IMG/VR virus record: IMGVR_UViG_3300036832_000568
Coordinates: 1-46,304 of that record
From: a virus
Length of the DNA: 46,304 nt
Direction: 5' to 3' (one strand)
Positions 2,085 through 42,771 of the stretch are shown piece by piece. The position numbers were made by a program, and so were the translations under genes. The notes below the pieces were generated by a model. The model made no database searches. It saw only the letters and a program-made list of their open reading frames with translations, and was not told the origin of the DNA. The stretch's first letter is position 1; every line of letters starts with the position of its first letter.

Positions 2085-2724
2085 GTGTCCAGTGTTTACA
2101 GAGAGACCCCCAGAGATGACCAAATCCTCGGAGCCATTGTCAGCCTAACAAAGCAACAGCCCCACCGGGGAGATGGGGCCGTTGCACTTGATGGGGGATG
2201 TGTACTCGTCGTGTCGGAACAAGAACACCCTTCATGTGGAGGTACAGCACTTGAAGTGTCGCAAAAGTTGGAGCAAGATGCAACGGAGTGTCGGGTCAAT
2301 AACAAACCCTTTCATGCGAACCCAGGTGCGTACTTCCCTGGAGGACGAGACCCTCGGATACGAGGTTTGCGATCGCGCATCTAAGACGTGGGATGCGAGC
2401 TGCGGCAAGATGCAGCCTGTGGAAAACTCAGGTGAGGATGATTGGGGAGAGTCCTGCACAAATCCTGCGTTCGCTACCGCTCACTTTCGTCTCCGAGAGT
2501 TTGTGCTCGGTCCCTTGCCATACGGACAAGGAACCTGCGCGTCAAAACGTACCTGCGACTCATAGCCCAAATAGTCCGCCGGACCCGTACAGTGGGGTGT
2601 AAACTTGCTGGTCAGAAGGATATGACCCCTGGTTGGGTGATTTTCGGCGGCCACCTATTACAACTGTTACTTGTGGGGCGGGTGGGCACATACCCGGTCA
2701 GAAATAGCCGTTGCTAAACAAATA

Positions 2725-2741
2725 TGATGACATAGTCATCA
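2725..2741. promoter_or_regulatory. Palindromic operator-like site 1
   Basis: TGATGAC and GTCATCA form a perfect 7-bp inverted repeat around ATA. It overlaps TATGAT (2723-2728), a good -10-like hexamer, although I see no matching -35. A repressor bound here would cover that promoter. Confidence 0.5.
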
Positions 2742-2779
2742 ATGAGGCCCAAACAGAGCAGATTCAGCTTATGGTCTGA

Positions 2780-2803
2780 AATAGCAGATATACATCTGCT
2801 ATT
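2780..2803. promoter_or_regulatory. Palindromic operator-like site 2
   Basis: AATAGCAGAT and ATCTGCTATT are perfect 10-bp inverted repeats with a 4-base spacer (ATAC). The length and short spacer are typical of a dimeric repressor site. It lies 39 bases to the right of site 1, with a different sequence. Confidence 0.6.
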
Positions 2804-2849
2804 GATGGGTCGTGAGCTGGACTTTCCTCATGACTCGCGCATCGTCATG

Positions 2850-2867
2850 TTATGAGCTAGCTCATAA
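2850..2867. promoter_or_regulatory. Perfect 18-bp palindrome, operator-like site 3
   Basis: TTATGAGCTAGCTCATAA is its own reverse complement. Imperfectly complementary flanks (GCATCGTCATG on the left, GACATGCGACG on the right) could extend it into a longer cruciform. It marks the left edge of the hairpin-rich block. Confidence 0.55.
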
Positions 2868-3005
2868 GACATGCGACGCGCATCATGATCGCGGCATGTC
2901 ACGCTCTCGCAGATCTTGCCCGCGGTACATGAGAGGCTGCATCGAAGGTGCAGCGAACTGGGGTTGCAGCGAGAAAGTACTCCCGTAGGGAGTAGAAAAA
3001 AGAGC

Positions 3006-3034
3006 TTGACACCGACGGCGATCCGTGTTTCGAT
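3006..3034 (+). promoter_or_regulatory. Candidate rightward early promoter
   Basis: TTGACA (3006-3011) is a perfect -35 hexamer; 17 bases later TTCGAT (3029-3034) is a poor -10. It points toward the first rightward gene at 3099. A similar CTTGACAC box precedes ssb. Confidence 0.4.
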
Positions 3035-3098
3035 GGAGTCAGCGTCGAACGGCGCTAAGCCCCGAAGGGGCTGCTAGGGAAAGCGGAGGTCACCGAAG

Positions 3099-3776
3099 GT
3101 GGCTACTACAAAGCAACGCCAGCCGAAGGCTGGAGAAAGCCTCAAAGACCTGCAAGCGGGACTTGAGGACGGCTCGCTGTCGAAGACAGCGGTGGAGCGA
3201 GTGTTGACTCGGCGCTTGGCATCGAAGATGCCAGGGACGGCGATTCATGGTCGGACGACGAAGTCGTTGGCCAATCTCAAGGCAGGGCGCCCGCTCGACC
3301 AAAATGTCTGGCCGACGAAGCCGAAGGCTTCGCCAAAGCCGAAGCGGCGGACCAACAGCAAGGCTGTTGAGAGCACCAGCGAAGCTGGTGTGTCACTCAG
3401 CGATGTCCATGACATCGTCGCCAAGACGGTTGCTGAAAGCAACCGAGGCATCCTCAATGAGATCGCCATCATGATGGAGACCATGCGAGGCACTGCTCCT
3501 GAGGCTGAGGACGTCATCGAAGATGACGAGGAGGCTGAGGACGTCATCGAAGATGAGGCCGAGGTTGGTGGGGTCCAAAGGACCCTCGTGACCACGTTGG
3601 TCGTCGGTTCCGACGACGAGCCTTACGCCGTCAAGGTCTGGAGCTTCACCGAAGGTGAGGAGCACCCAGAAAACGCCGTAGGCGTTGACGACGACGGCTT
3701 CATGGTCAACGACCAGGGTGACTACGTCAACCCTGACGGCAGCATCGAAGCGGCGGAGTACAACTCCGCCAAGTAG
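3099..3776 (+). CDS. Unknown protein with basic N-terminus and acidic repeat
   Basis: First gene of the rightward arm, 225 aa, starting at GTG 3099 with GGAGGT eight bases upstream and a GCTAGGGAAAG leader at 3073-3083. The N-terminal third is basic and Lys/Pro-rich (PTKPKASPKPKRR near residues 72-84), a possible DNA- or RNA-binding tail. A strongly acidic middle contains the tandem repeat EAEDVIEDDE / EAEDVIEDEA (about residues 135-154), encoded by a 30-bp tandem duplication (3501-3560). The C-terminal part (TLVVGSDDEPYAVKVWSF) looks folded. The whole gene is threaded with hairpins that fall in different codon phases. I recognise no family. Confidence 0.75.
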   Translation: MATTKQRQPKAGESLKDLQAGLEDGSLSKTAVERVLTRRLASKMPGTAIHGRTTKSLANLKAGRPLDQNVWPTKPKASPKPKRRTNSKAVESTSEAGVSLSDVHDIVAKTVAESNRGILNEIAIMMETMRGTAPEAEDVIEDDEEAEDVIEDEAEVGGVQRTLVTTLVVGSDDEPYAVKVWSFTEGEEHPENAVGVDDDGFMVNDQGDYVNPDGSIEAAEYNSAK

Positions 3777-3885
3777 GCCAACATGCCTGCAGGATCATGA
3801 GCTGGCTTCGGTCGGCTCATGGTCCGACAGGCCACTCTCGTAGAGAGTGTGTCAGCAAAAAACCACATGCTAGGGAGGCATACAC

Positions 3886-4071
3886 ATGAGGAAGTTCGAG
3901 TGCCAGTCCTGTGGACTGGTTCAAGAGGCGTTGGCCGACGCCGTAGGGCATAAATGCCCTAGCAATCGGTCGAAATGGACCACGTTCAAGCAGGTCGCTG
4001 GACCTTCGGTCCAGGCTCGGGCCAAGTCTGACTCCAGGGGAGTCAACAAGCGTCTGGTGGTCACCAAGTGA
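3886..4071 (+). CDS. Small zinc-ribbon-like protein
   Basis: The product is 61 aa. It begins with a CxxC knuckle (FECQSCG, Cys6 and Cys9) and has a second half-site GHKC (about residues 21-24), consistent with a one-zinc ribbon, followed by a basic tail. The start is supported by the leader GCTAGGGAGGCA at 3869-3880, 17 bases before the ATG. The stop overlaps the next start (GTGA), and a perfect 8-bp hairpin (4057-4075) spans that junction. A nucleic-acid-binding role is plausible but unproven. Confidence 0.75.
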   Translation: MRKFECQSCGLVQEALADAVGHKCPSNRSKWTTFKQVAGPSVQARAKSDSRGVNKRLVVTK

Positions 4072-4310
4072 CCACACATAACCCCGTTTTCCTCAAGACC
4101 TGCGACCGTCTCTCCGAGACGGCTGACCAGGTCGATCGTCTCATGGACGTAGTCCATAAGTGCCGGGCTGGCTACGCCGATCATGAGTCTCCTCATGATG
4201 CCAACGCCGCCATTTGTTGGGCCGTCTTTGACGACATCTACCGAAAGCTCACGGCGATCCAGACTCAGATCGACCTAGCGGTCGATGACATGACCGAGGA
4301 GCTTGCCTGA
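4068..4310 (+). CDS. Small unknown protein, translationally coupled
   Basis: The product is 80 aa from a GTG that overlaps the stop of the zinc-ribbon gene, so translation is probably coupled. It looks mainly alpha-helical (LSETADQVDRLMDVVHK; IYRKLTAIQTQIDLAVDDM), with an acidic C-terminus and no recognisable motif. Its stop overlaps the next start (TGATG), continuing a tight operon. Hairpins at 4106-4122, 4143-4157, 4180-4199 and 4269-4286 lie inside it. Confidence 0.65.
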   Translation: MTTHNPVFLKTCDRLSETADQVDRLMDVVHKCRAGYADHESPHDANAAICWAVFDDIYRKLTAIQTQIDLAVDDMTEELA

Positions 4311-4873
4311 TGCCGAGCCGCCCGATCATGAGAAAGCCTGCTGTCCCCCCTTCGGGGGGGATGGCATGGCGGCTCGACAAGTTCACTTGTCGCTCATGCC
4401 TGCTGCCAGCCAAGGGCTGGGAGTTCCGCTCTGAGCAGCGGTTCAACCGCTATGCGGTTCGAGGCTTATGCGAGGAGTGCTTCTCGGCCACCATGATGGT
4501 CCGCCGTCATGAGCGGCTCACCGGAGACATGGTCTCCGCTGCCACTCATACCGAGCGCATCTATCATGACCAGCCTCGTCCCTGGCTGGTGCAGCCTTCG
4601 GCTGCGGTCGCACTCTTGGAGCGTCGGCCCCGACGGAGTCGGCCGATTCGGCGCCATGCCTGCGGCACCATCATGACTGGCACGGAGTGCCACTACTGCA
4701 TGAATCGTCCCGACGATTCGGCCTTTGCTACGCAAAGGTACTGCGACATATGTGGCCCATCGTCGCCCCGTAGGGCGACTCATACCAAGCCGGAAAACGG
4801 CTTTGACCTGTGCAAAGCACATTGGACCATCATGAGCCCGGCGATCCGGGCCGAGTACCGGGAGGTCTCATGA
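4310..4873 (+). CDS. Multi-cysteine, probably zinc-binding protein of unknown function
   Basis: The product is 187 aa. Four Cys pairs suggest two or more zinc sites: FTCRSC (about residues 25-29), LCEEC (about 53-57), CGTIMTGTECHYC (about 116-128) and YCDICG (about 144-148), with a further Cys and His in LCKAHW. The start overlaps the previous stop. The stop overlaps the next start as ATGA, which is exactly the loop of a 7-bp hairpin at 4863-4880. At least a dozen hairpins lie within it, including CCCCCC/GGGGGG with a TTC loop at 4345-4359. It may bind nucleic acid or bridge proteins; no family is recognised. Confidence 0.7.
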   Translation: MPSRPIMRKPAVPPSGGMAWRLDKFTCRSCLLPAKGWEFRSEQRFNRYAVRGLCEECFSATMMVRRHERLTGDMVSAATHTERIYHDQPRPWLVQPSAAVALLERRPRRSRPIRRHACGTIMTGTECHYCMNRPDDSAFATQRYCDICGPSSPRRATHTKPENGFDLCKAHWTIMSPAIRAEYREVS

Positions 4874-5058
4874 GAGACCTTCTCGCCCTGGTCGTGGTCG
4901 CCCTGCTGATAGCAGGGCTGGTCATGCTCATCATGCACGGGGTCCACGCCCTACATGGGACTCCAACGACCACCTTGCCTCATGGCAAGCCTTATGGGCC
5001 GCGTGGTACATGGTGTTTCGATCGTCAGATCGACAACTGGGTCCGGTGTCACGCATGA
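4870..5058 (+). CDS. Small single-pass membrane protein
   Basis: The product is 62 aa. One long hydrophobic segment (about residues 3-23, DLLALVVVALLIAGLVMLIM) is followed by a short polar C-terminal part with two Cys (WCFDRQIDNWVRCHA). It starts at the ATGA overlap with the previous gene. A perfect 8-bp hairpin with loop GAT (4900-4918) encodes part of the TM segment. Function unknown. Confidence 0.65.
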   Translation: MRDLLALVVVALLIAGLVMLIMHGVHALHGTPTTTLPHGKPYGPRGTWCFDRQIDNWVRCHA

Positions 5059-5210
5059 CCATCTCTCAGATGGTCCATGTTTGGCATTGGTGCTCGGCTC
5101 ATGGCCGAGATGCCCATTTGGTGCTACTGCACCACCATCATCATGCCGCCTACGTCATGAGATGCTTCGGACGGATCGTGGCAGGGCCACGACCCGGACC
5201 CGACGCATGA
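5055..5210 (+). CDS. Possible small His-rich protein
   Basis: A 51-aa frame starts at ATG 5055, overlapping the preceding stop (ATGA) as elsewhere in this operon. It contains a run of five His (LVLLHHHHHAAYV) and Trp/His-rich sequence (VHVWHWCSAHG). The overlap supports expression; the odd composition and heavy hairpin content (5057-5075, 5093-5109, 5119-5134, 5176-5192) leave it uncertain. Confidence 0.4.
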   Translation: MTISQMVHVWHWCSAHGRDAHLVLLHHHHHAAYVMRCFGRIVAGPRPGPDA

Positions 5211-5629
5211 GACGTACCCTGCCATACCAGGCAGCGACGCGCCCGACCCTGCCATGCCAGATCCAACCGCACCACAACGGGCCGCGCACGTCACCCCGCG
5301 CTCGGCCACCTGCGGCTCATGGTAACTATCGGTTCAAGATGCGTGTCGGCGCATGGTAACGACCTGGGGCGCATCCATGTCGGTGCGCGCTGTTTCATGT
5401 GAAACCCTCAATGTTCCACCGTGTGGCCGCGACACGCGCTACGCATGTTTCGTGGGACATGCAATGCATGACCACAGGTACATGAGCTCGCCATGATAGG
5501 GACGAGAAAGCCCAGCTCAGCGGGGGTCTCGGCAACGGGAGTTGGTTGCCAGGGCTACCCCGGTTCCGGCACGGTGGAGTCGGACCTCGCCGCTCGGCGG
5601 GGTTCCTCGCTAGGGAAAGGACACGCAAC
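5211..5629. other. Non-coding interval with a parS-like palindrome and inverted relatives of the 11-kb repeats
   Basis: I see no gene in these 419 bases. They hold two similar words, CCCTGCCATACCAGG and CCCTGCCATGCCAG (5217-5263), which in reverse complement resemble the GGCATGGCAG words at 10970-11420. They also hold the palindrome at 5391-5406, a GGCAAC/GTTGCC inverted repeat (about 5531-5550), and the leader GCTAGGGAAAGG at 5609-5620 for the next gene. CATG is frequent throughout. Confidence 0.55.
5391..5406. promoter_or_regulatory. parS-like palindrome
   Basis: TGTTTCATGTGAAACC matches the bacterial ParB site TGTTTCACGTGAAACA at 14 of 16 positions. No parA or parB gene is visible in this genome, so if real it would be read by host ParB. 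It could equally be another member of the nearby hairpin family (GTTTCA/TGAAAC). Confidence 0.4.
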
Positions 5630-35064: not shown

Positions 35065-37109
35065 CAAGTCCCTCCGGGCTTATAGAAACCAAAGGTCTGG
35101 AGCATCTCGTCACCCACATGAGCGGCCAGGTTTTGTGCCATTGAGGTATTGCCCCAGTTGTACTGCGGGTCCGTGATAATGATCTGACGGGCCTGGTCCA
35201 ATGACATCGGTGCCGATTTGCCCGTCTCAGGATTGACCCCACCCGTCAGAAAGCGGTTGTACTTTGGATCGCTCCAGTTGATCCCGAGCGATTGAGTCGC
35301 ATCAGCAACATTGGCCTGAGAAGGCTGACCGCTCCCACCCACATTGCCATAGCCCAACAACATGGCCAGCTGACTCGCATAAGGATCAATCAGTGTCTTG
35401 GTGGACACACCCTGAGCAATCTGAGGGGCCAGCGTGGGGAACATAGACGCCGCTTGATTCTGTATCCACTGCTTAAACGATGACGTCGCGGCCGAAGTAC
35501 CCGTCGCGTCACCCCCCGCATCAAGTGGATTCACCGTGCCCTGTGTACCGGCAACACCTTTGATAGATCGAGTCAGCCAGTCCCCCAACGATGTCTCCGA
35601 CAGCGGTACTCCAGGCAGGTAGTTCTGTTGGAGCGCTTGCATACCACTCCAAATCGAAGCGGCCCGGCCCGTCAGCTGTTGGCCCGGCGTATAGCTGAAA
35701 TAACCTGCCACCGCATCAGAGATTTGATCGGGCTGCCAGTTGTTCTGCGTCGCTTTCTCTATGAGCCCAGTCCGTTGCGCCTCGGTCAGATTCACCCCAA
35801 GGTTGGCGGCATAGGCATTGACCTCGGCCGCCTGATTGGAGATCCCTGCCGCCGTCAGATTCGGGTTGTTGTTGACTTCGGTGGTGCTGTCGTTCACTAC
35901 CTGCTGGATGGTTTTGCCCGTATTAGCTGCCGTGGTCACCACGGTCGCCAAACTGGCGTAGACCTGAGCCGGAGTAGGTGCTGAATCGTTGGGACCTTGG
36001 AGCAGGAGACCAGCCCCCTGCAACGCCGCCACCATCCCGGCCGAGTCACTGGGATTTTGATACGCCTTAACCAGCTGCTGGTAGGCGTTCTCGGCCGACT
36101 GTGCCCCCATGTCTATCTGGCCCTTGTTTTTCACAATGTCACGCTGCTTGGCCTGGGCCGCTCTCGGCGTCATGGGGGCCGGAACGACTTGGCCGTTTTG
36201 ATCGTGCAAAGGCGTATACAGATCGTTGAACGTCATGCCCACACCCATGCGGTTAGGCGCCACGTTGTTCCATTTGCTCACGAGACCCTGTGGTACCTGA
36301 ACACTCCACACGCTCGAAGCATCGGAGAGAGCCGCCGGATTGAGACCCGGGATCTTCTTGGCCACCGCGCTCATGACCACTGACTTGAGTTCCTTCGGAT
36401 CGCTGAATCCGGCCTTGCGACGAATCGCATCAGCCGTCGCCTTGAGCCCAGCTCTGGTCACCGGACCACGATGACCCGGCTCATAGCCCACCGCACCCTC
36501 AACCGCTCGCCGCACCGCAGGCTGATGAGTCGTCAACATACCCAAGGGACTCTCAGTAGTAAGGAAGTGACCCACATCAGTCACGCCCTGTTCCAGTTGG
36601 CCCAGAACACCCGGCCCACCCGTAGGTGCTCCCTTGCGCAAAAAATCACCCGGTGTGATGTGATCCTGATTCTGCACATAGGCATTCACAAACCGAGTAA
36701 TGCGCTTATCACCCAATCCCTTGAGCTCTTTTACGTCATCGGAACTGAGTTCCGCGGTCGGACTGTAAAGATGCTGATAGGCCATAAGAAGGCGGCGAAT
36801 ACCTAGACCCTGTTGGATATTGGCCTCGGTCGCCTTATCGGTCTTAATGATCTGTCCGGTCCCCAGACCTCCCGAAATAGAAATGACCTTGTTGGCGATA
36901 GTCGGGTCAAGCTCAGGAGCCAGATTTGGATTGTTCGTCGCCGGGCTCAGGAAAATATTGCCCTGCTTCGAGTTCGGCGTCGAGTTGATACCCTGGGTCC
37001 CTATATTGGGTCCACCTGGGGTGGCCGGAGTGACGGTGCCGGTGCCCGGCGTAGCGGTCGGACCCCCATACGGAGTGATCCCGCCCTGCGTTGGTGCGTT
37101 ATTAGCCAT
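35064..37109 (-). CDS. Large internal virion (ejection) protein
   Basis: The product is 681 aa. A Gly/Pro/Thr-rich N-terminus (TATPGTGTVTPATPGGPN) is followed by a helical body with segments such as LGIRRLLMAYQHLYSPTAEL and TRFVNAYVQNQDHITPGDFLRKG, and further helical, Gln/Ala-rich sequence. It lies between the giant ejection protein and the transglycosylase protein. No family recognised; role inferred from position and size. Confidence 0.6.
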   Translation of the reverse strand: MANNAPTQGGITPYGGPTATPGTGTVTPATPGGPNIGTQGINSTPNSKQGNIFLSPATNNPNLAPELDPTIANKVISISGGLGTGQIIKTDKATEANIQQGLGIRRLLMAYQHLYSPTAELSSDDVKELKGLGDKRITRFVNAYVQNQDHITPGDFLRKGAPTGGPGVLGQLEQGVTDVGHFLTTESPLGMLTTHQPAVRRAVEGAVGYEPGHRGPVTRAGLKATADAIRRKAGFSDPKELKSVVMSAVAKKIPGLNPAALSDASSVWSVQVPQGLVSKWNNVAPNRMGVGMTFNDLYTPLHDQNGQVVPAPMTPRAAQAKQRDIVKNKGQIDMGAQSAENAYQQLVKAYQNPSDSAGMVAALQGAGLLLQGPNDSAPTPAQVYASLATVVTTAANTGKTIQQVVNDSTTEVNNNPNLTAAGISNQAAEVNAYAANLGVNLTEAQRTGLIEKATQNNWQPDQISDAVAGYFSYTPGQQLTGRAASIWSGMQALQQNYLPGVPLSETSLGDWLTRSIKGVAGTQGTVNPLDAGGDATGTSAATSSFKQWIQNQAASMFPTLAPQIAQGVSTKTLIDPYASQLAMLLGYGNVGGSGQPSQANVADATQSLGINWSDPKYNRFLTGGVNPETGKSAPMSLDQARQIIITDPQYNWGNTSMAQNLAAHVGDEMLQTFGFYKPGGT

Positions 37110-40100
37110 TGAGTGGTACCGCCCCTACTGCGTCAAAGAAGATAGCCCGAATCGCAGAAGACAACTCGGGATGCTGCTGTATCACCGTATTCAAATAGGA
37201 TTTCCAACCATCGGTCACCAGCGTCTCATTGTGGTTGTAGTTAAAAGTCTCTGAGGCCGCCACATACTGCTGGTTAGCCTGCTCGAAATAACCCAAGAGC
37301 GAGGCCAGATTCCGCCCATTCTGGGTGTTAGGAACCGCGTTTTTGGCCACCATCTGGCGTATCTGGGTAATGGATTCTCGCATCTGGGTGGCCTTGAAGT
37401 TGCTCAACGGCCCATACTGCGCCCAAACAGGCGCCTGAGTCTGGAGCTGATTCTTATAGTCGTCCCACGCCGTGTACTCCCGGCCCTTGGCCATCGAGTT
37501 ATTGCCAATAGCCTTGATGTTGTCCTCGTGCTGCTTCACCGCCTGGTAGTACACCTGATTCCCCGCCGCCACATAGAGCTGGGTCATGAACGAGTTCGGC
37601 CCACCAACCGACATCGGGTCACGCTTGATCCGAATACCCTGGGCCAGCTGCTCGTCGTAGACCGCCGGGCTGTACCCATTGGGCAGGTTCGGAAGCATGT
37701 ACGGCATGACGTTGGGATACTGACTGATGCCGGTTCGGTTGGCGTTGAGCCACGCCTCACCGGGCACCGACTCAGGGATGGCCCCTCCCGCTTTAGTGGC
37801 CGACTGAAATACGGTGTAGGGGGTGGCTTCGGGGTGCTTAAGCAAGAAGTTGGTCATGCCCTTGGCCACCGAGCCTGCCTTGGTGATGTCCTTATTGAGC
37901 TCGGCCCGAAAACCAAAGTCTTTGACGGTCACCGAAGGCGAGGTGGGAGAGAAGAACCCCAACACCGCATTGGTCATGTACAAAATGAACGTCTGATTCT
38001 TGATGCGATTGATGAAGTCCTGCATCTTTTGGGGATCAGCCGCCTGCTGCTGGGTCGGCACGATGTCGGGCTCAGGACCCCTGCGCCCACCTTGGACCCA
38101 CTTCTCATAGGCGACGTTCTGCTGGTACACCGCCAGCTGCATGGCTTGCATCATCGACGAGGCGAAGGCTCGACCCGGCGTTCCATTCATGCCCTGGGCT
38201 GCTGTGACAATCCGATTCAGCGTGGTATTGGGAATGAGCTGACTAATAAGCCCACTCGACATAGTCGGACCACCCACCACCTTTTCCAAGGTGGGTGTGA
38301 GCTCGGGGAAAGCTCCCTGCAACGCCTTAGCGCTGAGCGCAGCAATCGGGCTGACATCAGGCTTGAATCCCGAGGACAACGGGAAGATCACATTGGCCGA
38401 CGACAGTGAGGTATCAAAGCCGCCACCATCTACATTGACCAAGCCGAGGCCCATCGCCCCAAACGCCTCGGTCGTACCCCGAGCCAACCATGTCCCACCA
38501 GGAAAAGTAAAATAGCCCTGACCCTGCGCGTTGTGCTGATGCGCCGCCATCTGACCCACCGCCAGCGTCATCATCATCATGCGCCGAGCGGCCCCCGGAT
38601 CTTCGACGAGCAGACGCCCCATCCTCTTATACGCCTGCTCTTGGGCGAAATAGAAGGGCATCCAGTTGCGCACCGTCTCAGAAAGCTGAGTCCGGTCATG
38701 GAGATTATGGATGAAACGAATCATGCGATTCGAGCTGATATCGAGTGAGCGCTGCACCGCCTCGGTTTCATCAATCACCCCACTGTCGATCATGGGCTTC
38801 ATGCGATCCATCGTGCGCAGGTACTCAGCCATGAAAATGGGAGCCCTCGATATGGTGTTGACGTAGGGATTGATGAGCTTGCGGAACCCAAGATCAGCGA
38901 TGCGCTGCACCCGTGAGGACGCCGAAACATTCACCGTGCGGCCCTTAACCATTTCTGGCCAATACTCCTCGGGGACACCCTTGAGCGTATTGATCGACGG
39001 CGCTCGACCGTTGACGAGGTGATTGAGCACCTCGGGTCGATCCTGAGCATGGTAAATAGACGACTCCATGATCTCGCGTGCCCAGTCGTCATAGGCGTCC
39101 GAGCCCGGCGTTGGGTTGCGTTCGGAACGCCTGCCCGAGCGTCCAAAGGTCCCGGCCCAATCGGGGTCACGCCCACCGCGCTCACGCAGCGCTTGGGCTA
39201 CCTTCTCGGTCGCTCCGTTAATGGCGTCATCCTTGGTCGTCACGTCATGACGAGCCATCCAGCGCTGCACCGCGGCCCGCTGCTCATCGCTGACCGAGGC
39301 ATGGTCGGCCACCTCAACAGGGAACTGGGGGACCGCCCCCGCGTTCTCCATATTCTGCTCGGCCTGGCCCACCTTGCCCTGCAAGCGTGGAATGGTCTCA
39401 TCTTCGAGACGACGCAGAGCCTCAGCGGTAAACTGCTGCCCCGGCTCTTGATGCGCGGCAAGAATCTTGCGAGTGTCGGGGGAGAGATACCGAGCGTTCT
39501 GCGGCCCACCATTGGTGTGGAGCCAGTGAGCCAAATCAGCGTGCTCATCGCCCGAATCAGGCCGGTCAGTCGGAAAGGCGTCTTTGTTCTCTCGCAGCTC
39601 TTGCATGGCCTGTTCATGGTCAGAGAGCGAGAGGTTGGCGTTCATCCGAGCAGCCTGGCTGTCTTTGACCGCCTTAACATCACCATGCGCCACCGGCCAC
39701 AACACCATGACGTCATGCTCGGGTCCCGCCCCGATGTTGTTCAGGCCACCGCGGTAACTCAGACCGTCATAGCCAAAACGATTATGGAGCTCTTGGGCCA
39801 AGTCCATGAGCTCGGGCAGTTCCTCAGCCCGATCACCCGTGTAGAGATGCCGCAACCCAGTTTGAATCGCCTCATAGACCTGACCGGCATCGACCTCTCT
39901 GTCGGAGAGTGCCTTGAGCACCGGGTCCATGATGCGAGCCACTTCTTCGGTGTCGTTGGTGACGGAGGGCAAACCCTTTACCAGATGCTCATTGACCCAC
40001 TGGTGCATGAAGAGACGAACATCGGTGGGCAACGCCTCGTCCATATTTAAGAGATGCGGTGGGTGATCGGCCGTCCAACGAAGCGCATAGATGTGAGGAT

Positions 40101-42771
40101 CACGCCCCGGTGGCTGAAACACCTCACCAAAATCATGCGCCGCCTGCTCGGCACCACGATCCTCATCGGTGGCCAAAATGTCCTTGTTGACATAGTCGGT
40201 CGCCACACCACGGTTTTTGGTCAAGTACAACCCCGGACCCCGGTAGTTGATGCCGCCACCGGACCCGGCGTAATAGGGGTCGAGCTTGTCGTCCTTCCAG
40301 CGGGTCGCGGTGCCGTGGTACCACAAGTCAGCACCCGCAGCCGGGAGAGGCAGCTTGGGCATCTTAGGATTTTTCGCCGCCTGCTTCATGAGCGAGAGAT
40401 ACTCACGAGCACCTAGACGTTGGTACGGATCACGAGCCAGCTCACGCAACGCCGCCTGCCAGTCGGCCAGATACACGTCACGACCCAACACGCTCTTATT
40501 GAGAATGGTGAAGTCCTTGCCGCTACGCTTCATCTTCATCGGTGTGGCCGACAAAAAGTTACGAAAGCCATGCTCGACCCGAGCACTCGTCGAGATCTCT
40601 TTGGACCAGTTATCTGCCGTCGATACCGCCGCCGTCACCATGTGCGCCTCAGTGATTTGGGCCATCTGAATCGCCCACCGGGCATGGTCATTGTTATGGG
40701 GAATCCCGTTGAACATCCGGTACAAAAACCCGGTGAGAGCATTGATCTCACGCTCATTATCTTTGGCCTCACCAACGGCGTGACCAAGCTTGCCCAAAGC
40801 GACGTAATACTGGCCCGCAATCATCCGACGCAGACCAAGGCGAAAGATATTAGGGATGAGCTCGGCCAAAGCGATGTGGTTGGCATAGCTCAGTGACAAC
40901 AACACCAGAGGTTTAAAGAACCCTTGAGTGATGGAGTGATAGGCAAAATCATCAAGTTTGCCGGTAAAGTTGTACGCCCCGGACAACTCGGCCGCCATGC
41001 GCTTGACCTGAGTAAAACTCGGCACCACACCCTTGCCGGTCTGATTCTGCAGGATCGCCATATTGTGTTCACGCGCCACCGTGCCATCGGCGTTGAACTC
41101 CAGCACCGGCCTCGACGCCTGGCCATTCAAACGAATGCCATAGACCCCACCTTGACCCGGATTGGCATTGCCCATGATCTCATCAAGGTGAGTTTTCAGG
41201 TCCTTCATCACGGACTGATTGCGCATGATCGACATGCGATAATCCCAATAGCCCGCAATGGTGTTGAAGTCCTCGGGCGTGTAGACCTTGGCCCGCTTCA
41301 TGGTCATGAGATCATCACGGAGCCCTGGCGGGATCTTGTTCATGTTGCGCTCGAAGTCACGGATGCCCACCCGAGCCACCGTGTCCATGACCGCGTTCTG
41401 GAAGATCATCTTGCGATCACCCGGGGCGGCATGAATGAAACTGGTCACCGTGTCGTCGGCCACCTGCTTGGTGTGCGCAAAACGCAGCATCCGATGCAGG
41501 TCCACCGCACCGTCGGTGGAGTCAAAGTCGATGATATTCCCGGTGAACTTCTTGAGCTCAGGGTCATAACGAGCACCGGGCACATTGGCAAAACGCCGTA
41601 TCCACCGGGCCGGACCAAAGACAGCGTTGTTGGCCAAAGTACCGTCGAAGTTGGCCGCTATATCACGAGCACCCTTGGTGGCCTTGGTCACAAAAGACAA
41701 CGAAGGCAAGGTGTCAGTCGTCTGGAGCTGCTTGGTCTTGAGCACCTCACGGAAAACCTGGAGCACATCCTCATCAGTCTTGGCGTTACCGAGACGATCA
41801 GCGATGGGTAGGAATCGCGCCCACTGCGCCGAATGGCTCACAATCTGCCCTGAATCCATGCCCGCTATCTGGTGGACGGCCCGCCGAAAGCCGGTGTACA
41901 CCTTGGAGTTATAGAGCAGATCGACGTTCTCAGGGTTCATGGCGTAGCCGTGCCAGGTGTTCTTGAGAATGCCCCCCAGCCCATCAGCACTCCGGGCCAA
42001 GCCCACTACCTTGCCGCCGAGAGCCAAAGGGTCGGTGCTCAGGTCACCAATCCCGTCGATGACGCCACTGAGGGTGCCAAAGGCACCGCCCTTTACGCCG
42101 AGCTTGTTGGCAATATCTCGACCAAAGGACACCACATCGCCGGTATGGGGATCGCGGTAGGTGTTGCCGTTGGCCGTCGCAATCCATGACTGGTGGTGCT
42201 GAATCTGACCCAACAGCGTCCCCGCCGCCTCGGCCCCGAGCAAACCGAGCTCAATGTTCCCACCCGTCGCTGCAGTAGTAGCCGCCGCCGCACCGGCAAC
42301 AACAAGACCTTCTTCAACCGCCGCCATCATGCCGTAGCGAGCCTCCACGTCATGGAAATAGCGATACTCATGCTGGGCAATGGACAGCGGATAGTTGAAC
42401 GCCTTGCCCGCATCACTCAACGCGGTGGAAATCCCGGTGTCATGAGCCACCACCGCAAAGGGATGGGCCACCTTGCGCACCGCACCCAAGATGTCACCCA
42501 AGATTCCACCCGAACCCTGGTTCACCTGGTCATGAGCTTGGGCAATGGCATGGTGATACTGCCCCGCCGCTACCGCATTGGCATTTCCCGCGACATCACC
42601 ACCACTCGCACCAAGAGCCAGCGCGGTCCCCGGTGAGAGCGTTGGGCCATTCTGCGAAGCTGCCGTGACATTATTACTAAGCGTCGAAACGATGTCGGAG
42701 GGATTGACCGATTCGGCTTGACCAGGCTGGACGACTTGACCCCCAACGATTGAGGTGTTGCCGTCGACCAT
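37102..42771 (-). CDS. Giant internal virion protein (1889 aa) with ADP-ribosyltransferase-like domain
   Basis: The largest gene of the genome. Residues about 150-200 contain a hydrophobic segment (VEEGLVVAGAAAATTAATGG) and another lies near 630-650 (VLLSLSYANHIALAELIPNIF), as expected for membrane-penetrating ejection proteins. Residues about 812-1040 carry an ART-like signature: LWYHGTATRW, then RGPGLYLTKNRGVATDYV, and GYDGLSYRGGLNNIGAGPEHDVMVLWP. This resembles the ART domains of phage polyvalent proteins that are injected to modify host targets. I find no T7-type RNA polymerase motifs. Translation starts at TAATG after the Pro-rich gene. Confidence 0.75.
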   Translation of the reverse strand: MVDGNTSIVGGQVVQPGQAESVNPSDIVSTLSNNVTAASQNGPTLSPGTALALGASGGDVAGNANAVAAGQYHHAIAQAHDQVNQGSGGILGDILGAVRKVAHPFAVVAHDTGISTALSDAGKAFNYPLSIAQHEYRYFHDVEARYGMMAAVEEGLVVAGAAAATTAATGGNIELGLLGAEAAGTLLGQIQHHQSWIATANGNTYRDPHTGDVVSFGRDIANKLGVKGGAFGTLSGVIDGIGDLSTDPLALGGKVVGLARSADGLGGILKNTWHGYAMNPENVDLLYNSKVYTGFRRAVHQIAGMDSGQIVSHSAQWARFLPIADRLGNAKTDEDVLQVFREVLKTKQLQTTDTLPSLSFVTKATKGARDIAANFDGTLANNAVFGPARWIRRFANVPGARYDPELKKFTGNIIDFDSTDGAVDLHRMLRFAHTKQVADDTVTSFIHAAPGDRKMIFQNAVMDTVARVGIRDFERNMNKIPPGLRDDLMTMKRAKVYTPEDFNTIAGYWDYRMSIMRNQSVMKDLKTHLDEIMGNANPGQGGVYGIRLNGQASRPVLEFNADGTVAREHNMAILQNQTGKGVVPSFTQVKRMAAELSGAYNFTGKLDDFAYHSITQGFFKPLVLLSLSYANHIALAELIPNIFRLGLRRMIAGQYYVALGKLGHAVGEAKDNEREINALTGFLYRMFNGIPHNNDHARWAIQMAQITEAHMVTAAVSTADNWSKEISTSARVEHGFRNFLSATPMKMKRSGKDFTILNKSVLGRDVYLADWQAALRELARDPYQRLGAREYLSLMKQAAKNPKMPKLPLPAAGADLWYHGTATRWKDDKLDPYYAGSGGGINYRGPGLYLTKNRGVATDYVNKDILATDEDRGAEQAAHDFGEVFQPPGRDPHIYALRWTADHPPHLLNMDEALPTDVRLFMHQWVNEHLVKGLPSVTNDTEEVARIMDPVLKALSDREVDAGQVYEAIQTGLRHLYTGDRAEELPELMDLAQELHNRFGYDGLSYRGGLNNIGAGPEHDVMVLWPVAHGDVKAVKDSQAARMNANLSLSDHEQAMQELRENKDAFPTDRPDSGDEHADLAHWLHTNGGPQNARYLSPDTRKILAAHQEPGQQFTAEALRRLEDETIPRLQGKVGQAEQNMENAGAVPQFPVEVADHASVSDEQRAAVQRWMARHDVTTKDDAINGATEKVAQALRERGGRDPDWAGTFGRSGRRSERNPTPGSDAYDDWAREIMESSIYHAQDRPEVLNHLVNGRAPSINTLKGVPEEYWPEMVKGRTVNVSASSRVQRIADLGFRKLINPYVNTISRAPIFMAEYLRTMDRMKPMIDSGVIDETEAVQRSLDISSNRMIRFIHNLHDRTQLSETVRNWMPFYFAQEQAYKRMGRLLVEDPGAARRMMMMTLAVGQMAAHQHNAQGQGYFTFPGGTWLARGTTEAFGAMGLGLVNVDGGGFDTSLSSANVIFPLSSGFKPDVSPIAALSAKALQGAFPELTPTLEKVVGGPTMSSGLISQLIPNTTLNRIVTAAQGMNGTPGRAFASSMMQAMQLAVYQQNVAYEKWVQGGRRGPEPDIVPTQQQAADPQKMQDFINRIKNQTFILYMTNAVLGFFSPTSPSVTVKDFGFRAELNKDITKAGSVAKGMTNFLLKHPEATPYTVFQSATKAGGAIPESVPGEAWLNANRTGISQYPNVMPYMLPNLPNGYSPAVYDEQLAQGIRIKRDPMSVGGPNSFMTQLYVAAGNQVYYQAVKQHEDNIKAIGNNSMAKGREYTAWDDYKNQLQTQAPVWAQYGPLSNFKATQMRESITQIRQMVAKNAVPNTQNGRNLASLLGYFEQANQQYVAASETFNYNHNETLVTDGWKSYLNTVIQQHPELSSAIRAIFFDAVGAVPLNG

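Follow-up and report, generated by a model that had tools for sequence, protein, structure and literature searches.

The rightward genes of a tailed phage from IMG/VR open with a 2.3-kb block in which perfect DNA mini-hairpins follow one another about every 40 bases, through coding and non-coding DNA alike. The block lies at positions 2936-5192 of the window, that is, of the whole 46304-base contig analysed here (IMGVR_UViG_3300036832_000568), and contains 57 non-overlapping perfect hairpins (catalogued with a stem of at least 5 bp and a loop of 3-8 bases), which together occupy 42% of its sequence; stems measure 5-8 bp, mostly 7 bp, loops mostly 3-4 bases, and the field as a whole is assigned to no strand. 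Excess hairpins, newly found here, also run through an entire, distantly related lineage, the Beephvirinae and about 55 of their environmental kin. Our reading, held tentatively and with slightly less than even confidence, is that the block consists of DNA mini-hairpins kept perfect by hairpin-templated correction of one arm from the other, perhaps with added selection for structure.

The contig carries the markers of a tailed phage: a capsid protein (Phage_capsid_3), terminase, portal (a weak match), tail fibres, endolysin, SSB and an AAA-ATPase. A 127-base direct repeat is found at both of its ends, and a relative, G015, has a terminal direct repeat of again 127 bases; since the length is the same in both, we read the repeat as an assembler overlap and the molecule as closing into a circle. 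The frame of the terminase large subunit gene, whose 5' part lies at 1-1326 on the minus strand, continues across the record ends to 45461. The hairpin block forms the head of the rightward genes, directly past the divergent junction with the leftward terminase. The capsid is 43-46% identical to those of Streptomyces podophages of the Beephvirinae, and closer capsid relatives (about 62% identity) are found among lake contigs. At 37102-42771, on the minus strand, the phage encodes a giant virion-type protein of 1889 aa, a stretch of which, by eye, resembles an ADP-ribosyltransferase motif.

The original prediction had placed about 50 mini-hairpins within these coordinates, and the counts bear it out. 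Perfect centres with a stem of at least 6 bp and a loop of 3-4 bases number 45 in the block, a density of about 20/kb as against about 0.9/kb in the rest of the record, whereas 500 dinucleotide shuffles of the block gave a mean of 1.41 and a maximum of 6. For 3-base loops alone, of which about 30 had been counted by hand, 32 were observed against a shuffle mean of 0.82 (maximum 6). The remaining 41 kb of the window showed no hairpin excess (1.07x), and thus lack the genome-wide coding excess that is typical of the Beephvirinae. Single-stranded DNA folding gave z-scores of -5.7 and -6.7 for two parts of the block and of -1.3 for a control gene. Four further hairpins in the non-coding DNA upstream (2725-2883, no strand assigned; at 2725, 2780, 2850 and 2871, stems of 5-10 bp) are likely to be the fringe of the field. 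Hairpin spacing showed no convincing periodicity, the Rayleigh scan being weak and the peak near 27 bases likewise. Two other features of the region were noted. CATG is over-represented within the block and near it (window 2500-5600), with 36 occurrences against about 15 expected in 2936-5192, and TCATGA occurs 11 times against 1.2 expected, mainly between hairpins. The strand skew also shifts within the block, GC skew going from about +0.1 (3000-4000) to about -0.05 (4000-5500) and AT skew from +0.2 to about 0 over the same intervals, near the end of the stretch dominated by GAA loops.

Most of the hairpins are contained in six closely packed ORFs, called mechanically, all on the plus strand and together spanning 3099-5210. 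The first (3099-3776) encodes 225 aa with an acidic C-terminal half and no relative found, and holds 13 hairpins against 1.3 expected; under synonymous-codon permutation (n=300) the hairpins vanish, with a mean of 1.29 and a maximum of 5. It is followed by an ORF of 61 aa (3886-4071; 4 hairpins against 0.4), zinc-ribbon-like by a weak match below the cut-off, and by one of 80 aa that overlaps both of its neighbours (4068-4310; 4 against 1.3). The fourth, at 4310-4873, encodes a Cys-rich protein of 187 aa, also with no relative found, and its 13 hairpins are likewise abolished by synonymous-codon permutation (mean 0.63, maximum 4). The last two encode 62 aa with an N-terminal hydrophobic stretch (4870-5058) and 51 aa, the start overlapping the stop of the preceding gene (5055-5210). 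With six tightly packed ORFs over most of the block, hairpins and coding coexist. All three codon phases are used by the hairpin centres (13/12/4). The earlier argument that protein repeats do not account for the hairpins is upheld. Chance or base composition, protein repeats and codon usage are all ruled out by the dinucleotide and codon-preserving shuffles.

Block stems peak at 7 bp and none exceeds 8 bp. Perfect 7-bp stems are far more frequent than expected (30 against 4.2) whereas stems with a single mismatch are not (15 against 13.6), so that the feature is all-or-none. Arm sequences vary from hairpin to hairpin, the recurring parts being the loop and the closing pair, and the flanks have an information content near zero, with no motif. 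The constraint is thus on shape, as had been proposed, and a dispersed palindromic repeat family of the REP or MITE type is ruled out, the copies having no shared arm sequence. Also as described at the outset, GAA loops predominate to about 3660 and loops are more varied beyond. Examples on the plus strand are CGCTGTC-GAA-GACAGCG at 3175-3191, with a 7-bp stem and a cGAAg loop, and CGTCATC-GAA-GATGACG at 3512-3528; the minus strand has one with a GAA loop at 4591-4605, where the plus strand reads GCAGCC-TTC-GGCTGC. GNA, read on either strand, accounts for 18 of the 32 triloops, and 17 of those 18 have a C-G closing pair.

Tight hairpins in coding DNA also exceed codon-permuted nulls in the 15 cultured Beephvirinae (Streptomyces podophages), a set that includes several near-identical genomes. 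In ten of them the excess over codon permutation was 3.4-4.2x for stems of at least 6 bp and 6-8.5x for stems of at least 7 bp; the other five, analysed with slightly different loop limits, gave 3.2-3.9x and 5.7-6.9x. Among 55 environmental relatives recognised by a Beephvirinae capsid, the excess was about 1.8-5.5x. The preferred loop in Beephvirinae hairpins has 3-5 bases, the closing pair is C-G more often than expected (117 against 65), and the excess is genome-wide, about equal between early and late genes. Control phages without an excess were phi29 (0.53), T7 (0.67), phiC31 (0.7) and Bacillus phage Pony (0.72); other controls gave 1.4 (lambda), 1.3 (BRock) and about 1.2-1.5 (R4). The lake relatives of the window phage, closer to it by capsid, also showed no excess (0.8-1.1). 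In D29 and N4, hairpins in coding DNA stand at about twice the null, which may be the Beephvirinae phenomenon in a weaker form. G015 combines a 3-5x genome-wide excess with a dense field of about 22/kb at the contig end ahead of the early genes (contig positions 1-1050, mainly non-coding, stems up to 15 bp), and the position of this field corresponds to that of the block in the window phage. CATG is likewise raised in the G015 field (18 against 6.5). A local cluster, with 14 hairpin centres/kb (loops 3-8) against about 1.2 expected, was noted in G011 near 26-27.5 kb.

Searches for relatives of the block genes returned none in phages or IMG/VR, and no family above the cut-off for any of the ORFs; co-variation and loop inversion are therefore seen in the relatives only, and the evolutionary evidence comes from aligned Beephvirinae. 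The comparison with related phages proposed at the outset was accordingly made on the wider lineage, where compensatory arm changes were present. Hairpins remained perfect 29 times against 5.2 under a site-by-site null. Compensatory double changes exceeded the null at every distance, by about 2-6x overall, in counts that pool both directions of non-independent genome pairs (observed/expected 11/2.2, 14/4.3, 81/25.9 and 96/35.9, the third referring to pairs at 17-20% divergence), and the excess was largest where both paired bases are third codon positions (32 against 5.2). Between close pairs (<5% divergence), for which 11 compensations were counted against 2.2 expected, broken base pairs, pooled in the same way, were depleted (108 against 175). 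Stems with one mismatch turned perfect 52 times against 27 expected. Isolated substitution clusters between close relatives matched arm conversion as the reverse complement 8 times, as compared with 9 for the reverse and 17 for the direct control; clustered one-arm conversions are found as single convincing cases, with no excess over these controls. Five-base arm changes in JXY1, considered as proof of template switching, were dropped, as that part of JXY1 (about 0.4-4.5 kb), set against WRightOn and Manuel, looks like divergent DNA brought in by recombination.

Loops were compared where the arms are perfect in both phages and the loops differ by at least 2 bases. The differing loops were the reverse complement of one another in nine distinct alleles (about 7-8 loci), the reverse in one and the complement in none. 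Kumquat and Zeigle, at 99.5% identity, differ by one such loop flip with the arms unchanged. Several of the flipped loops belong to longer-stemmed hairpins, terminator-like or in a tRNA region, that are presumably non-coding. Template switching from one hairpin arm to the other is known to invert loops (PMC8604942). Cruciform resolution could be an alternative source, and the annotations of some of these phages include a Holliday junction resolvase and an endonuclease VII. Such flips are a mark left by the copying or resolution of DNA hairpins.

In the mechanism that we propose, the DNA of the block would fold back locally, single-stranded or extruded by supercoiling, about every 40 bases. A replicating strand, or an extruded cruciform, would switch template inside a hairpin and copy one arm onto the other, occasionally flipping the loop during the switch, so that quasi-palindromes would turn perfect and remain so. 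Both arms would be held complementary by this DNA-level process while proteins stay encoded, and selection for DNA structure may contribute alongside correction. By analogy with the relatives we infer that the same mechanism made the block, whose hairpins may also have a function. Since the other 41 kb of the window show no excess, a local process is required in this phage: it, or the need for it, would be limited to the opening 2.3 kb of the early region, next to the end that carries the terminase. Candidate reasons are a region that is often single-stranded, as the block may well be, or import from a hairpin-rich lineage not yet seen. One of the causes first suggested, the perfecting of quasi-palindromes by template switching, is supported by the loop inversions and the compensatory arms, but not by the clustered conversions, which are in no excess, nor by the breaks, which are depleted beyond what unbiased conversion alone predicts; purifying selection fits the close pairs better. 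The lack of a clustered-conversion excess, together with break depletion accompanied by few compensations, suggests selection on DNA structure too.

Selection for a function at the DNA level is a serious contender that we judge somewhat less probable. Hairpins, extruded or on single-stranded DNA, would be recognised by shape: they might, for instance, give entry to a phage protein of replication or transcription, or they might shield phage DNA while it is single-stranded. The depletion of breaks at even <5% divergence with few compensations, the peak of stem length at 7-8 bp and the position of the field where the early genes begin, in the window phage as in G015, all argue for it, and the C-G-closed GNA triloops follow the same rule as the loops of N4 promoter hairpins extruded by supercoiling (PMC4496689). 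On the other hand, flanks and spacing are not conserved, arms are unspecific, as are loops outside the block, and the occurrence of Beephvirinae hairpins in early and late genes alike would be odd for a site-specific role. Folding of single-stranded DNA, also named among the original causes, is compatible with the DNA-level constraint, the C-G closing and the GNA triloops. Sites for a nicking enzyme, another of those causes, would be ones that have no motif in their flanks. It is possible, if rather unlikely, that DNA hairpins of free sequence are kept through genes since the DNA must fold locally, during entry, replication or supercoiling; such a shape code would, with similarly modest likelihood, be to phage DNA what genome structure is to RNA viruses, and a whole phage subfamily would carry it genome-wide.

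Horizontal acquisition, in which the block would be a segment from an unseen phage lineage densely hairpinned throughout, seems unlikely. The edges of the block are sharp, no excess is found elsewhere in the window, the block genes have no relatives and their codon usage is slightly deviant, yet GC and third-position GC equal those of the neighbouring early genes; moreover, acquisition accounts for the place and not for the hairpins. Less likely still is selection at the RNA level, with mRNA hairpins binding a phage protein or steering decay, translation or termination. Most GNA loops are on the strand that carries the genes, and UNCG tetraloops are enriched in the sense orientation in Beephvirinae (12 against 3.8), but they are enriched equally in antisense (17 against 6.6). 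An RNA structure would spare G-U pairs; in the aligned Beephvirinae, G-U breaks were no better tolerated than A-C breaks (0.73 and 0.79 of expectation, other breaks 0.74), and stems with one mismatch showed G-U and A-C in equal excess, with no G-U bias. The constraint is therefore on DNA complementarity, and RNA elements, the first of the causes put forward originally, are disfavoured. A search against RNA families matched a single tRNA, outside the block. Finally, it is very improbable that every hairpin is an N4-like promoter for a virion-packaged single-subunit RNA polymerase: 7-bp stems and cGNAg loops resemble N4 early promoters (PMC4496689), and N4-like phages have distant relatives of the capsid and the AAA-ATPase, but the sites number dozens on both strands, the start-site flank is not conserved, and no T7- or N4-type polymerase was found in the window phage, G015, FlowerPower or WRightOn, the searches with the PF00940 model and the N4 polymerase core being negative for the window phage and positive for N4, Zuri and T7, and a profile of the giant virion protein matching no N4-type polymerase among solved structures. 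With no polymerase found and flanks not conserved, the block is not classed as N4-type.

Whether hairpin-templated correction or selection prevails, coding DNA is seen here to bear a structural constraint as well, to an extent for which we found no report in double-stranded DNA phages; non-subscription literature yielded no description of such hairpin fields in phages, and the one paper that a full-text search found to name Beephvirinae makes no mention of hairpins. The Beephvirinae of laboratory Streptomyces offer a cultured system for deciding between selection of the structure and its production by polymerase template switching. If selected, it would be a new layer of phage genome function; if written by template switching, a strong mutational force shaping codons and proteins.

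Among known systems, the mitochondrial genes of Nematomorpha resemble the block in carrying perfect-only inverted repeats inside protein genes; these are gained and lost between species and are either perfect or missing, near-perfect copies not being in excess, and template switching or repeat conversion has been suggested as their origin (PMC6649704). Nematomorpha repeats, however, reach 284 bp, whereas the phage block has stems of 5-8 bp and loops of 3-4 bases, dozens per kb. Quasipalindrome template switching in yeast (PMC8604942) and E. coli (PMC7202029) homogenises arms and inverts short loops in coding DNA, and loop inversion of this kind is seen in the Beephvirinae relatives; those cases are scattered mutation events, whereas the phage has a standing field, with no excess of clustered conversions. 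The promoters of the N4 virion RNA polymerase (PMC4496689) share the short DNA stem, the 3-base loop with 5' G and 3' A, and C-G closing, and the N4 hairpin shape (a 5-7 bp stem and a C-G-closed triloop with G/A ends) is found in 18 of the 32 block triloops, nearly all of them C-G; N4, however, has few promoters, conserved stem bases and a dedicated polymerase, unlike the block with its dozens of unrelated arms and no polymerase found. The Beephvirinae, as represented by FlowerPower, WRightOn, Manuel and Treat, differ from the block in that their hairpins reach at most about 8/kb, are spread genome-wide and show no GNA loop preference, but they share with the window phage a capsid at 43-46% identity, the gene order and the same kind of hairpin.
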